Assembly (NCBI GenBank): GCA_027604185.1
Contig: JADGKB010000212.1
Coordinates: 1 to 10,793 of the forward strand
Direction of reading: 5' to 3'
From: Boothiomyces macroporosus
Taxonomy: Eukaryota; Chytridiomycota; Chytridiomycetes; Rhizophydiales; Terramycetaceae
Length of the DNA stretch: 10,793 bases
Each line of letters begins with the position of its first letter. Positions within the stretch are counted from its first letter, which is position 1. The notes below the pieces were generated by a model that saw only the letters and a program-made list of their open reading frames with translations, was not told the DNA's origin and did not search any database. This document shows positions 1,830-9,204 of the stretch, piece by piece. Position numbers and translations under genes: made by a program.

Positions 1830-2883
1830 ATGTCTATAGCTCGAAAATATGCAAACGTAAACCAGGAAATGGATCGATCATACTGGGACTATGACGAGCT
1901 AGAGTTGACTTATGGGTAACTGGAGCTAATATTAGGGGCCAAGACAACTATGAAATAATCCGCAAGGTTGGAAGAGGAAAGTATTCTGAAGTCTTTGAAG
2001 GAATCAACGTTCAGAACGGAATCAAGTGTGTCATCAAGGTATTGAAGCCCATCAAGAAAAAGAAAATCAAGAGAGAGATTAAAATATTGCAGAATTTGAG
2101 TGGCGGAACTAATATCATTCAGTTGCTGGACTTGGTGCGAGATCCACTTGTAATTGATGTTAATGGTAGAGCAAGACACCGGCATTGATCATGGAATACG
2201 TCAACAACCAGGATTTCAAAACCTTGTACCCAAAATTGACAGATTTGGATGTGAGATACTACATGCTCGAGTTACTCAAAGTAAGTATTCTTAATATAGG
2301 CGCTCGATTTCTGTCATTCTAGAGGTATAATGCATAGAGATGTTAAACCTCACAATGTTATGATTGATCACGAAAATAGAAAACTGAGATTGATTGACTG
2401 GGGATTGGCAGAGTTTTATCATCCTGGAACTGAATACAATGTAAGGGTAGCATCCAGATATTTCAAAGGCCCAGAGTTGTTGGTAGACTTTCAAGAGTAC
2501 GACTACTCTCTGGACATGTGGTCTTTGGGATGCATGTTTGCAAGCATGGTAATTTATTCTTATGGTAGATCTTTCGCAAGGAGCCGTTCTTTCATGGACA
2601 AGACAATTACGATCAGCTGGTTGTAATTACCAAAGTATTGGGAACGGACGAGCTGTTTGCTTACATTGACAAATACGATATCGAGCTAGATCGCAGATTT
2701 GATGATTTGCTAACCAGATGTGTCCGCAAACCTTGGAGCACTTTTATAAACCCAGACAACGAGCGATATATATCAGATGAAGCTATCGAATTTTTGGATA
2801 AACTATTGCGGTACGATCATCAAGAACGAATCTTGCCTACAGAGGCGATGCAATTGGCATACTTTGATCCTGTGAGAAAATAA
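1830..2883 (+). CDS. Casein kinase 2 catalytic subunit alpha, copy 1
   Basis: Catalytic subunit of the Ser/Thr kinase CK2, which phosphorylates acidic sites. Exons are 1830-1915, 1936-2149, 2170-2280, 2300-2548 and 2569-2883; introns are 20, 20, 19 and 20 nt. The joined frame gives 324 residues. In order are the glycine loop [11 protein letters not shown], the ATP lysine in VIKVLKP, the basic CK2 cluster KKKKIKRE, the catalytic loop [11 protein letters not shown] in place of DFG (diagnostic of CK2), and the C-lobe segments [24 protein letters not shown] and YDHQERIL. It lacks the long tail of some animal forms. The TAA stop lies inside AATAAA. It forms a tandem pair with the gene 51 bp downstream. 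Family assignment is certain; the splice sites are inferred from restored conserved motifs. Confidence 0.95.
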
Positions 2884-2884
2884 A
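2879..2884 (+). promoter_or_regulatory. AATAAA overlapping the CK2 copy 1 stop codon
   Basis: The hexamer contains the TAA stop at 2881-2883, implying a very short 3' UTR. Only 51 bp separate this stop from the next start. Confidence 0.5.
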
Positions 2885-2934
2885 CCACCTTGAAATAGTT
2901 TTGTTTTTTAAAAAAAAGTTTTCCCAAAAGCATC

Positions 2935-3994
2935 ATGTCCAAGTCAGTCGCTCGCTTATACGCCAACATCAACCAGGAAATGGATCAATCATATTGGGAC
3001 TATGACAACGTAGAACTGATATACAAGTACAAATTGATTAACAAGGGGCCAAGACAATTACGAAATCATTCGTAAAGTTGGGCGTGGAAAATACTCTGAA
3101 GTATTTGAAGGAATAGACATTGTAAACCGCAGGAAATGCATCATCAAAGTATTGAAGCCAATCAAGAAAAAGAAAATCAAGAGAGAAATCAAAATCTTAC
3201 AAAACTTGAGAGGAGGTATAAATGTCATTCAGCTGTACGAGTTGGTCAGAGACCCAATTGTAATTTATAGTAATGGTAGAGCAAGACGCCTGCGCTGATT
3301 ATGGAATGTGTGAATAATCAGGACTACAAGACTTTGTATCCAAAATTCACTGATTATGATATTCGATATTATATTTTTGAATTATTAAAGGCGCTGGATT
3401 TTTGTCACTCCAGAGGTATTATGCATAGAGATGTCAAGCCTAATGTAATCGTTTGTTCATGTAGAATGTTTGTATTGACCATGAAAAGAGAAAACTTCGT
3501 TTAATTGACTGGGGGCTGGCAGAATTTTATCATCCTGGAACCGCTTACAACGTCCGAGTTGCTTCCCGTTACTACAAAGCACCAGAGCTGTTGGTAGATT
3601 TTCAAGAGTACGATTACTCTTTGGACATGTGGTCTTTGGGATGCATGTTTGCTAGTATGGTACTTTGTGCTAATTGTAGATATTCTTGATTGAAGTATTC
3701 TTTCACGGGTCTGATAATCAAGACCAGTTGGTTGAAATCACCAAAGTATTAGGAACGGATGCGTTTTACAAGTATGTAGACAAGTACGACATTGACCTTG
3801 ACCCTGCTTTTGATGTGCTGATTGTCAAAGCCACCAGAAAGCCTTGGGAATCTTTTGTTACTCAGGAAAATTTAAAATACGTGTCAACCGACGCTTTGGA
3901 TTTCTTGGACAAGTTGCTGAGATATGATCACCAGGAGCGTATCCTTCCTATTGAAGCCATGAAATTACCTTATTTTGACCCTGTAAGAAAATAA
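2935..3994 (+). CDS. Casein kinase 2 catalytic subunit alpha, copy 2
   Basis: Tandem paralog of the upstream CK2 alpha. Exons are 2935-3026, 3046-3259, 3280-3444, 3465-3659 and 3680-3994; introns are 19, 20, 20 and 20 nt. They join to 326 residues. The glycine loop [11 protein letters not shown], lysine in [21 protein letters not shown] and DWG are all present, so an active kinase is plausible. It differs from copy 1 at conserved sites: KPHN becomes KPNN, and IFRKEPFF becomes IFLIEVFF. It lacks copy 1's intron after ELLK (2281-2299) and has one in the KPN/NVC codons (3445-3464) that copy 1 lacks. Its first intron ends AAG rather than TAG or CAG. The stop lies inside AATAAA. It may be a specialised or less constrained CK2 isoform. 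Confidence 0.94.
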
Positions 3995-6731: not shown

Positions 6732-6732
6732 A
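6727..6732 (+). promoter_or_regulatory. AATAAA overlapping the EBP stop codon
   Basis: The hexamer contains the TAA stop at 6729-6731. Any downstream cleavage would fall in the 3' end of the convergent GPATCH1 gene. Confidence 0.5.
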
Positions 6733-6752
6733 TAACAGTATATGTGCTCAAG

Positions 6753-9204
6753 CTACATAAAATCCGCAGCAGAAGGACGCTTAGGAGCTGGAGCTTCCTC
6801 CTCACTTCCACTGTCATTTTTTACTGCGACAACCTTTTGCTTCTTGTTTCGAGGTTTTCCCATCAAAGTTGTGGTTACCCTTTTTACTGGCTTTGTAAAT
6901 TGTGGTCTATATCCGACTAGTGCATCATCCTTTTCATCCTTTTCCTCTAACCTAGCATCATCAGTATATCTTGATAAATCTGGCTTTGGCATTGGAGCTT
7001 TGCTGTTTGATTTAGAAAATACTGGCTTGAAATCAGGAGTACTCGCCTTTTCTGATTTAGATTTCGGTTTTTGAGGTTTCACAAACTGAATTCCATCCTC
7101 CTCTGGCTCCATAGTAGATATTGAGGATGACATTGATGTAGACTTGGATGGTAATTTTGTCGGTGGTCTTGCAACGGTATCCTTCAAAGGTGGTCTTGCA
7201 ACGGTATCCTTCAAAGGTGGTCTTGCAACGGTATCCTTCAAAGGTGGTCTTGCAACGGTATCCTTCAAAGGTAGGTTAGTGGATGCATTTAAAGTAGCGT
7301 TTGCTCCGACTGTAGATCCTGTCACAATATTCTGCTCTTGTTTATCCCTAGACTCTAAACCAACTTTTGGTGCATCACCATCAACATCCATTTCGTCATC
7401 AGAGTCATCAAAAATCGCTTTGAATAGATCCATTGATGCAACAACTTTTTCTTGTTCTAATTCAGGTTCCTCCTCTTCCTCCTCCACAGGCTCCTCCTCA
7501 TGCTCGTTCATCATGTCATCTTTGGTCAAAACCTCCGTTTCTGGGTCTTTAATCTGACCAGTTGCAATCATTCGATCACGCTCATTCATTAAGCCTTCCA
7601 TGGTTTGCGCATTGAGAGCGAGCTTATCTTCAGGGTCTATTTCATCGCCTTCATCATCTTTTCTGTATGCTACTGCTACTCTTCGACAGAGAATCTTGCA
7701 TGGCTTCCAAGTGCTTTCAGACCGAGTCATTCTTCCGTATATAATCTGTAGCTCCTTTGTCTGTATTAATTATAGTTACTTCAGGGCCGTGTGTCTTCTT
7801 TTTCTCATCAGTTTCGTTGGTAAACCTTGATGCCATCATATCAGATAATGGTCGGTATAGATTCGCTGCAGTTGAGAATTCTTTAGATTCAGCTGCCATC
7901 TCTGGAGTGATTTGCTATCTTAATAATAGTTTACATCTTTTGGAATAGCTATATTCTTTTCCAACACTATATTCTCCAAAAAATCCTTGTACCGTTTTTG
8001 TTTCGGCAAGTCATTCCCAAATGGCATGAAGCCTTTCAAAGCATTTTCTGCAATATCTTTAGTAACAGTGGAAAGTTCCAAAGCCTTTTTCTTTTCTATT
8101 GTAGGTACAGTGACGGATTTGGGAGCTATACCGCTCATTCTTTCTTGTTGTTTCTTTGCTATAAACGCAAATATAGACTGTTGCAAGTCATCCTTTTCAT
8201 CTTCTCCCAATCCAACTTTGGACGGCTCTTTTTTCAAATCCTTGAAGAATACTGGTTTCGGTTTAAAATTTGAAGGAGGGTATGGAGCAAGATAAAGAGG
8301 GGGTGGTTTCTTTAGTAGCTCCGCACTCTTATATCCTTCAATTTCACCATATCTAGGTTTGACAGGCTTTGGTTTCGGCATCTCTTTTGGCTTTTTCTTT
8401 TCTTTTTTTAATACCATTGGTTCACCATCTTCATCCACAAATGTATTATAGTCAGCTGATGGCTGGTCATATTCGTCATAATCTGATTCATCATCAAATA
8501 TTCCCGTTCCAAATCCTCCTTTTGGTTTGCTCTTTGGCCGCTGTTTTTGTAATTTTTCTGCATAAAATATTTATTACCTGTTTTTTGCTTAGCTGCGATA
8601 AATTCAGGAGCAAATGAGTGAGGATTATAGCCCCTTCCAAAAGTGTTCTCTTTGGGTTCATCCAGTAGTAATCCATGCAGCTTTTTGAGAAGCGGATCTT
8701 TGGCTAAAGTTACAGAGTGGTTACAAATCTCTATTCGCTTGTTTTTTGGTCCAACTGTGAGCCCTTTTTGATATCCCATCTCAACCATTATTCTCACACC
8801 GATTCCAGAATCCACTGGTTTCACTAAATCCTCCACCACTTTGTATAATCGATTAACATTATTCATTCGCTTCATTTCTACCTCTCTTGCGGTACTTCCA
8901 AGCGATTCAAATTCCTTTATTGCTTCAGTTCCAAATTCCTGAATATCTTCCAAGTCCATATAATCGTGAATCGTCTGGTTAAACTGCCCTCTAGCATTTT
9001 TTGAAGAAGAAAATTGTTTCGGCTGCCATCCTTCTTTTGATCCGACAGTATTAAAGTACCCAGCAGAAAACCCTCCTTGGAAAGCGCCATGAAGCCGCTG
9101 TCTTCCTTGGTCATCCCTCACCTACTGTTTAAATCTTGGAATACTTCCTGAAGATGTTGGGGAACTCGTTTTTCAGCATTTATTTTTGTCCCTATTCGCT
9201 GCAT
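6753..9204 (-). CDS. GPATCH1: GPATCH1-like G-patch protein
   Basis: Homolog of the spliceosome-associated G-patch protein GPATCH1. Minus-strand exons are 9204-9145, 9121-8578, 8557-7935, 7914-7780 and 7760-6753; introns are 23, 20, 20 and 19 nt, encoding 789 residues. The signature RLHGAFQGGFSAGYFNTVGS is near residue 30. A degenerate G-patch (GIGVRIMVEMGYQKGLTVGP) lies near 125-150, an acidic GFGTGIFDDE segment follows, then IYGRMTRSESTWKP, SMDLFKAIF near 563, and a basic tail. All have counterparts in GPATCH1. The final exon contains a four-copy 27-bp tandem repeat. The ATG at 9204 follows an in-frame TGA. An upstream exon joined through a GTGAGT donor near 9241 is possible but would need a 44-nt intron. 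It converges on EBP with a 21-bp gap. Confidence 0.93.
7162..7269 (-). repeat. 27-bp minisatellite in GPATCH1, four identical copies
   Basis: Four perfect tandem copies of a 27-nt unit start at 7162, 7189, 7216 and 7243. On the coding (minus) strand each encodes nine residues, PLKDTVARP in one register, so copy-number change keeps the frame. Identity at every base, including third positions, indicates recent expansion or homogenisation. It lies in the low-complexity C-terminal part of the protein. Confidence 0.95.

Follow-up and report, generated by a model that had tools for sequence, protein, structure and literature searches.

A genome-wide pattern of ~20-nucleotide introns in the nucleus of the chytrid fungus Boothiomyces macroporosus

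Introns near 20 nucleotides (nt) or less have been described in algal relic nuclei, heterotrich ciliates and mikrocytid parasites (PMC10245619). Chlorarachniophyte nucleomorphs have more than 800 introns of 18-21 bp in ~300 genes, heterotrich ciliates have introns of 15-16 nt, and the intracellular parasite Mikrocytos mackini has 224 introns of 16-17 nt and a strongly reduced spliceosome from which U2, U4 and U6 were identified (PMC10245619). In Stentor coeruleus, introns of 15-16 nt have the branch adenosine (A) at position 10 or 11 with no strong branch consensus (PMC9505925). Among fungi, median intron lengths of 45-50 bp are given for Pneumocystis jirovecii, Pseudocercospora fijiensis and Peltaster fructicola (PMC7181583). 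In Cryptococcus neoformans introns with a mean of 63 bp are termed short, and in a survey of 644 fungal genomes neither "short introns" nor "shortest" occurs as a term (PMC8476143). Here we describe introns of about 20 nt, referred to as micro-introns, in a 10,793-nt stretch of DNA (contig C212, the window) from Boothiomyces macroporosus and across the rest of its genome (15,203,306 bases in 216 contigs). No description of them was found in the open-licence literature on Boothiomyces, Terramyces, Rhizophydiales and chytrid introns, a scope outside which most subscription papers fall.

With high confidence we interpret the micro-introns as U2-type spliceosomal introns that have collapsed to near-minimal size across the Boothiomyces macroporosus nuclear genome. 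What the sequence shows directly is the introns, the geometry they share across the genome, and that U1, U2, U6, SF1 and a U2AF-like gene are present; the micro-introns would be spliced as lariats from an A at intron position 14 or 15 (A14/A15). An earlier interpretation of the window, made without database searches (the sequence-only reading), had placed ~20-nt introns in a fungus-like nucleus. The fungal nucleus holds, and the introns extend genome-wide, but the host is not merely fungus-like: it is a true chytrid (Fungi, Chytridiomycota, Rhizophydiales, Terramycetaceae) with introns most of which are already used in its deposited proteins.

The micro-intron pattern is genome-wide in this fungal nucleus. 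Intron calls were made in a sample of 210,793 bases (1.4% of the genome) consisting of the window and positions 10,001-20,000 of contigs 1 to 20, and all whole-genome figures are pattern counts. The purpose-written semi-Markov gene-finder has no branch model and requires only the intron end dinucleotides; it was trained on open frames and then on three rounds of its own GT-AG parses of the same 210,793 bases. With a flat intron-length prior of 10-150 nt, 84 GT-AG introns were called, 40 of them at 18-23 nt (36 of 75 outside the window), compared to 1-8 introns of 18-23 nt for 12 control pairs of end dinucleotides under the same coding model. A GTA start was present in 33 of the 36 non-window introns of 18-23 nt and the branch motif in 30, compared to a GTA start in 13 of the 39 non-window introns of other lengths. 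In a refined run, with lengths and donor letters re-estimated and a search range of 10-300 nt, 171 of 186 introns fell at 19-22 nt (41, 85, 37 and 8 at 19, 20, 21 and 22 nt, respectively; mean 20.1 nt, standard deviation 0.8) and none were called at 16 or 17 nt. Five control pairs under the refined treatment gave 3 to 5 introns at 19-22 nt. At least one micro-intron was present in 74 of 121 gene models (window included), at a density of ~1.1 per kb of coding sequence.

Junctions were checked against Pfam in eight hand-picked models of the 74, taken from non-window stretches and each with at least three micro-introns. Within the best-matching stretch lay 23 of the 29 junctions, with one at a domain edge and five outside, including 3/3 of a WD40-like protein; the families spanning junctions were cytochrome P450, importin beta, polyprenyl synthetase, RPN7, aspartyl protease, thioredoxin/PUL and protein kinase. 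Called introns divisible by three contained an in-frame stop in 37/37 cases, but the gene-finder is nearly blind to stop-free ones.

The best branch A in the 171 called introns of 19-22 nt was at position 14 in 80, 15 in 67, 16 in 8 and 17 in 2, with the other 14 discussed below, and the distance from the branch A to the final G was 5 nt in 74, 6 in 69, 4 in 8, 7 in 6 and longer in 14. Each arm thus takes mainly one of two values, with the branch A at 14 or 15 and the final G another 5 or 6 nt on, and the sums give the lengths 19, 20 and 21 nt; the donor-to-branch distance had been proposed as invariant with only the tail varying, and this view is not upheld by the larger set. The commonest branch boxes were TTAAT (51), CTAAT (28), TTAAC (20) and CTAAC (16). 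Donor letters were A at +3 in 162, A at +4 in 107, T at +6 in 92 and G at +5 in only 36, and the last exon base was G in 83 of the 171. The branch motif, which is not part of the gene-finder, was in place in 140 of the 171 introns; among the 162 with GTA it was in place in 133, compared to 137 of 1,438 uncalled GTA..AG segments of 19-22 nt (~10%) and to a mean of 16.7 (maximum 27) when the interiors of the 162 were shuffled in 200 rounds.

The same geometry was obtained from a model-free grid of GTA..TAAY..AG on both strands of the 210.8 kb (branch at 8-31, A-to-final-G distance 3-12). The grid peaked at branch 14, with 48 and 45 sites at distances 5 and 6, and at branch 15, with 14, 35 and 30 at distances 4, 5 and 6; elsewhere each cell contained 0 to 10 sites, except one cell of 11 at branch 16. 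Genome-wide, the strict template GTA-N8/9-TAAY-N2/3-AG (the four central cells) gave 11,326 sites (5,591 + 5,735) in 15.2 Mb, compared to 1,019 (255 per cell) when the branch is moved 5 nt away from the donor. The two cells at branch 13 (distances 5 and 6) together gave 494, a background level, and the 18-nt combination (branch 14, distance 4) gave 313, slightly above the off-geometry 255 per cell. Reversed-pattern controls for these four patterns gave 1,764, 1,984, 1,066 and 432, respectively, above the off-geometry baseline, and the excess therefore depends slightly on the baseline used (10,307 or 9,562). The strict template fitted 101 of the 171 called introns and, extrapolating from this fraction, the true intron total may be nearer 17,000. 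A looser scan suggested by the sequence-only reading (GTA, 10-11 nt, A, 3-8 nt, AG) was tried and set aside, as it gave 89,422 sites compared to 103,860 for the reversed pattern and hence no excess; the signal needs a written-out branch box.

On contigs C1, C2, C3, C10, C18 and C20, pattern sites were seen to repeat at fixed offsets (42,596 bases on C2, 53,656 on C10), a recurrence that points to large duplications, real or assembly-made. Because some contig segments occur twice in the assembly, distinct introns are fewer than the site counts.

In the window, fifteen micro-introns had been proposed, and all were read at the proposed positions with the proposed lengths (five of 19 nt, eight of 20, one of 21 and one of 23), each beginning with GTA and ending with AG. 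Splicing them in silico gave five uninterrupted products of 324, 326, 454, 243 and 789 amino acids (aa), corresponding to two copies of CK2-alpha, JJJ1/DNAJC21, EBP and GPATCH1, in agreement with the proposal that excision restores conserved proteins. Deposited Boothiomyces macroporosus proteins hold 11 of the 15 predicted junctions (4 + 4 in the CK2 copies, 3 in GPATCH1), the other four being backed by homologues or Pfam; annotation of the deposited proteins has already used most of these introns. The genes and their introns are as follows.

1830..2883, + strand: CK2-alpha copy 1, 324 aa, four micro-introns; 100% over 324 aa to the deposited Boothiomyces macroporosus Casein kinase II subunit alpha; Pfam Pkinase at 34-319
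1916..1935, + strand: intron of 20 nt, branch A14; junction in deposited protein
2150..2169, + strand: intron of 20 nt, branch A14; junction in deposited protein
2281..2299, + strand: intron of 19 nt, branch A14; junction in deposited protein; copy 2 lacks the intron and the paralogue reads through
2549..2568, + strand: intron of 20 nt, branch A14 (CTTAT); junction in deposited protein
2935..3994, + strand: CK2-alpha copy 2, 326 aa, four micro-introns; deposited protein P0152 of equal length, identical at 4/4 junctions
3027..3045, + strand: intron of 19 nt, branch A15; junction in deposited protein; Terramyces model with six more residues here
3260..3279, + strand: intron of 20 nt, branch A14; junction in deposited protein
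3445..3464, + strand: intron of 20 nt, weak branch box TTCAT (A15); junction in deposited protein; copy 1 lacks the intron
3660..3679, + strand: intron of 20 nt, branch A14; junction in deposited protein; also called by the flat-prior gene-finder
4557..5961, + strand: JJJ1/DNAJC21 homologue, 454 aa, two micro-introns; 74% to Terramyces sp. JEL0728; Pfam DnaJ and zinc fingers
4748..4766, + strand: intron of 19 nt, branch A14; homologues agree; Terramyces model with ten fewer residues here
5614..5634, + strand: intron of 21 nt, CTAAC, A14; homologues agree
5981..6731, + strand: EBP homologue, 243 aa, one micro-intron; Pfam EBP at 112-222 spans the junction at aa 204
6594..6612, + strand: intron of 19 nt, branch A14; junction within the Pfam EBP match
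6753..9204, - strand: GPATCH1 homologue, 789 aa, four micro-introns; deposited partial protein 100% over 97%; Terramyces orthologue 71% over 100%
7761..7779, - strand: intron of 19 nt, branch A14; junction in deposited protein; called by the flat-prior gene-finder
7915..7934, - strand: intron of 20 nt, TTAAG, A15; junction in deposited protein; called by the flat-prior gene-finder
8558..8577, - strand: intron of 20 nt, TTTAT, A15; junction in deposited protein; called by the flat-prior gene-finder
9122..9144, - strand: intron of 23 nt; Terramyces protein continuous across the junction; outside the deposited partial model; missed by the refined gene-finder

The refined run found 14 of these 15 introns, and only 8 fit the strict template. 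Letter 14 is an A in 12 of the 15 and letter 15 in the remaining three, as had been counted, and the TAAC reported for 5614-5634 is part of its CTAAC box. Two of the 12, however, have an A at both letters (3027-3045 and 7934-7915) and are shifted to A15 by their motifs, TTAAC and TTAAG; branch A placed by motif is at 14 in 10 introns, at 15 in 4 and ambiguous (15-17) in the 23-nt intron. This longest intron has an earlier AG at position 20, the use of which would leave an in-frame TAG. If its branch is A17, that AG lies at 3 nt, where the grid shows background counts, and the AG used lies at 6 nt, one of the favoured distances, so its length may follow the same 3'-arm rule. The two CK2-alpha copies lie in tandem and have three intron positions in common, with 2281-2299 present in copy 1 only and 3445-3464 in copy 2 only. 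Both JJJ1 junctions match homologues, apart from the Terramyces model at 4748-4766; no Boothiomyces protein was among the best 120 JJJ1 matches listed, and a JJJ1 scan of viral contigs turned up no relative. A candidate sixteenth micro-intron, GTAAGTAATTTCAATCGCAG, lies at 1560-1579 on the - strand, where its excision joins a short frame; an upstream stop is unexplained and the gene-finder made no call there.

Components expected to act on these introns were looked for in the same genome. A search for the small nuclear RNAs U1, U2, U5 and U6 returned two U2 copies and U6 above cut-offs and a full-length U1 match 0.7 bit under its cut-off. The contact sequences are present, namely U2 GUAGUA (branch recognition), U6 ACAGAGA and the U1 5' end AUACUUACCUG. 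SF1 was identified by its SF1-HH domain (114.6 bits, cut-off 29.3), and a U2AF large-subunit-like gene scored 230.7 bits exon by exon, under the cut-off of 310.3, with three RRM stretches after splicing. The gene models have introns of 24 and 22 nt in SF1 and of 20, 19 and 19 nt in the U2AF-like gene, and micro-introns inside these two genes would permit self-regulation. GPATCH1, encoded in the window, is itself a splicing-related protein. Against a Pfam cut-off of 22 bits, its G-patch motif falls short in Boothiomyces (18.3), Terramyces (16.1) and Globomyces (15.4) and passes in Batrachochytrium dendrobatidis (29.8).

Compared to the described systems, the Boothiomyces introns share features with each. 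Chlorarachniophyte nucleomorphs have a similarly narrow length range that overlaps 19-22 nt, but theirs is an endosymbiont's relic nucleus, whereas the present introns lie in a 15.2-Mb chytrid nuclear genome with ~10,000 excess template sites, and protein identity together with taxonomy (Chytridiomycota) excludes membership of a nucleomorph. Stentor coeruleus likewise has thousands of tiny introns and conserved U2 and U6 contact sequences (PMC9505925), and its final G falls 5 nt past the branch A (15 minus 10, 16 minus 11), which is the commonest 3' arm here; its donor-to-branch distance, however, is 10-11 compared to 14-15 in Boothiomyces, where there is a clear YTRAY box. For Stentor, altered Cwc25 and Isy1 are proposed to relieve a steric clash (PMC9505925). 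The heterotrich format of 15-16 nt with A at 10 or 11 is not seen here, the introns being of 19-22 nt with A14/A15 in 147 of 171. Nucleomorphs and heterotrichs had been named as precedents, and the mikrocytids, at 16-17 nt (PMC10245619), are to be added to them. Mikrocytids also have introns of near-uniform length and conserved sequence (PMC10245619), but those of Boothiomyces exceed them in length and, by far, in number, and its genome yielded U1 and SF1. In Paramecium bursaria very short introns are present genome-wide (median ~24 nt; PMC12862383), although these are longer and the host is a ciliate. Compact fungal genomes share nuclear GT-AG spliceosomal introns, with medians of 45-50 bp (PMC7181583) or a mean of 63 bp (PMC8476143) compared to the mean of 20.1 nt in Boothiomyces.

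We propose that the template consists of a donor GTA (often GTAAnT), a short spacer, YTRAY with the A at 14 or 15, 2-3 nt and YAG. The donor would be read by U1 and then U6, the branch box by SF1 and then U2, and the AG at a set distance, with its final G 5-6 nt past the branch A, would be joined. The donor helix formed with U1 or U6 covers approximately +1 to +6, and the branch helix formed with U2 approximately A-4 to A+1, i.e., positions 10 to 16. Few nucleotides would be left between the helices, and the sharp lower edge at branch 14 would set them nearly side by side. Such an edge is expected if both helices form on one short strand without overlap, and the branch-14 edge may reflect spliceosome geometry. 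The commonest 3' arm, of 5 nt, is the same as in Stentor and is perhaps at a limit common to lineages, which the donor arm (14 here compared to 10 in Stentor) would not be. We consider it rather probable that this fungus shrank almost all of its detectable introns, some ten thousand if not more, until a hard geometric floor was reached. Strict sites with a branch A below 14 are at background, those below 19 nt are nearly so, and the U1, U2 and U6 contacts are canonical. If true, the floor would be a direct readout of donor-branch helix closeness in an otherwise ordinary spliceosome.

A less probable but serious contender accepts the introns as real and attributes the branch-14 edge to a protein ruler (e.g., SF1/U2AF or the lineage's branching factor) or to a history of deletion bias that came to a halt at this point, in place of helix closeness. 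SF1 and the U2AF-like gene are present in the genome, and a lineage-specific protein ruler would account for the edge equally well; a smooth deletion bias by itself should not leave background at 13 (494, two geometries) next to an excess of ten-fold at 14-15 (11,326, four geometries). Other spliceosomes go lower, with mikrocytid introns of 16-17 nt (PMC10245619) and a Stentor branch A at 10 or 11 (PMC9505925), and the splicing of Stentor introns with a 10-nt donor arm means that 14 is not a universal limit, a point that counts against a geometric floor. Further results weigh against our interpretation of the introns themselves. Under the flat prior, no more than 4 of the 15 window introns were recovered exactly, and three others were misplaced as segments of 32, 34 and 15 nt; the refined run added to the window a 122-nt intron that spans a gene boundary and is probably false. 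The branch motif is not in place in 31 of the 171 called introns, and the best A lies at 9-12 in 14, so some gene-finder calls may be wrong. The sample contains 158 strict sites, of which 101 were called, 22 were uncalled in sense genes, 5 were antisense and 30 lay outside gene models. U5 was absent from the matches, in a search whose own control is uninformative.

It is very improbable that gene prediction or base composition has created the pattern. At 39% GC, short GTA..AG segments are frequent, as the 1,438 uncalled segments attest, and length re-estimation sharpens any peak, but the peak was already there under the flat prior before any re-estimation, control pairs given the same treatment failed to sharpen to a peak, and the grid and genome counts are free of gene models. 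We give equally little credence to removal of the segments by a non-spliceosomal route (e.g., a tRNA-type endonuclease) or to their bypass by the ribosome. Lariat splicing is a prediction from sequence here, which leaves room for such a route, but the GT..AG ends, the fixed spacing of YTRAY and the canonical U1, U2, U6 and SF1 of this genome argue against it, as does the failure of control end dinucleotides to yield a comparable class.

Deposited Terramyces proteins carry anomalies at two of the same sites. The CK2 protein of Terramyces sp. JEL0728 has six extra residues (YDLLTR) at intron 3027-3045, consistent with erroneous translation of an 18-nt intron. The Terramyces JJJ1 lacks, at intron 4748-4766, ten residues that are kept in the Boothiomyces product and in four other fetched homologues (P0002-P0005), consistent with a predicted Terramyces intron that is too long. 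Terramyces proteins read smoothly through the remaining CK2 and GPATCH1 junctions. These protein anomalies suggest micro-introns at the same sites in Terramyces and an intron collapse that is older than the Boothiomyces/Terramyces split. In addition to this, the GPATCH1 model of Globomyces sp. JEL0801 (P0243) has nine extra residues (IIHFILIFK) within a conserved stretch, possibly a retained intron of ~27 nt, in which case short introns may extend beyond Terramycetaceae. Since the two deposited Terramyces proteins gain or lose residues exactly at micro-intron sites, small errors may be numerous in the database proteins of this group.

Other features of the window were also recorded. The contig ends (1-77 and 10717-10793) form a perfect 77-base inverted repeat, which we guess to be a short-read assembler overlap (k = 77) at a repeat. 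The stretch 138-714 holds an element of ~580 bases whose inverted ends, 31 bases long, are 87% complementary and whose interior has ACGATACG-type repeats in either orientation; it has the look of a small foldback transposon or one resembling a miniature inverted-repeat transposable element. At 1034-1183 on the - strand, ARAGORN placed tRNA genes for Lys (CTT) and Val (AAC) two bases apart; of the two, Rfam at gathering threshold gives only the Lys gene. A 27-base tandem repeat at 7162-7272, in 4.1 perfect copies, encodes KDTVARPPL in GPATCH1, a unit present three times in the Terramyces protein. At 9791-10549, a 252-aa frame with no intron matches DUF1684 (40.6 bits, cut-off 25).

The ~20-nt Boothiomyces introns are among the shortest introns known, and their one tight template may mark a lower bound on the intron size that the splicing machinery can handle. 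Boothiomyces is a cultured saprotroph, and thousands of ~20-nt introns in a fungus would mean that such introns require neither parasitism nor endosymbiotic reduction. With an ordinary branch box and ordinary U1, U2 and U6 contacts, the geometry would be comparable with known spliceosome structures, making the question of the minimal intron directly testable.

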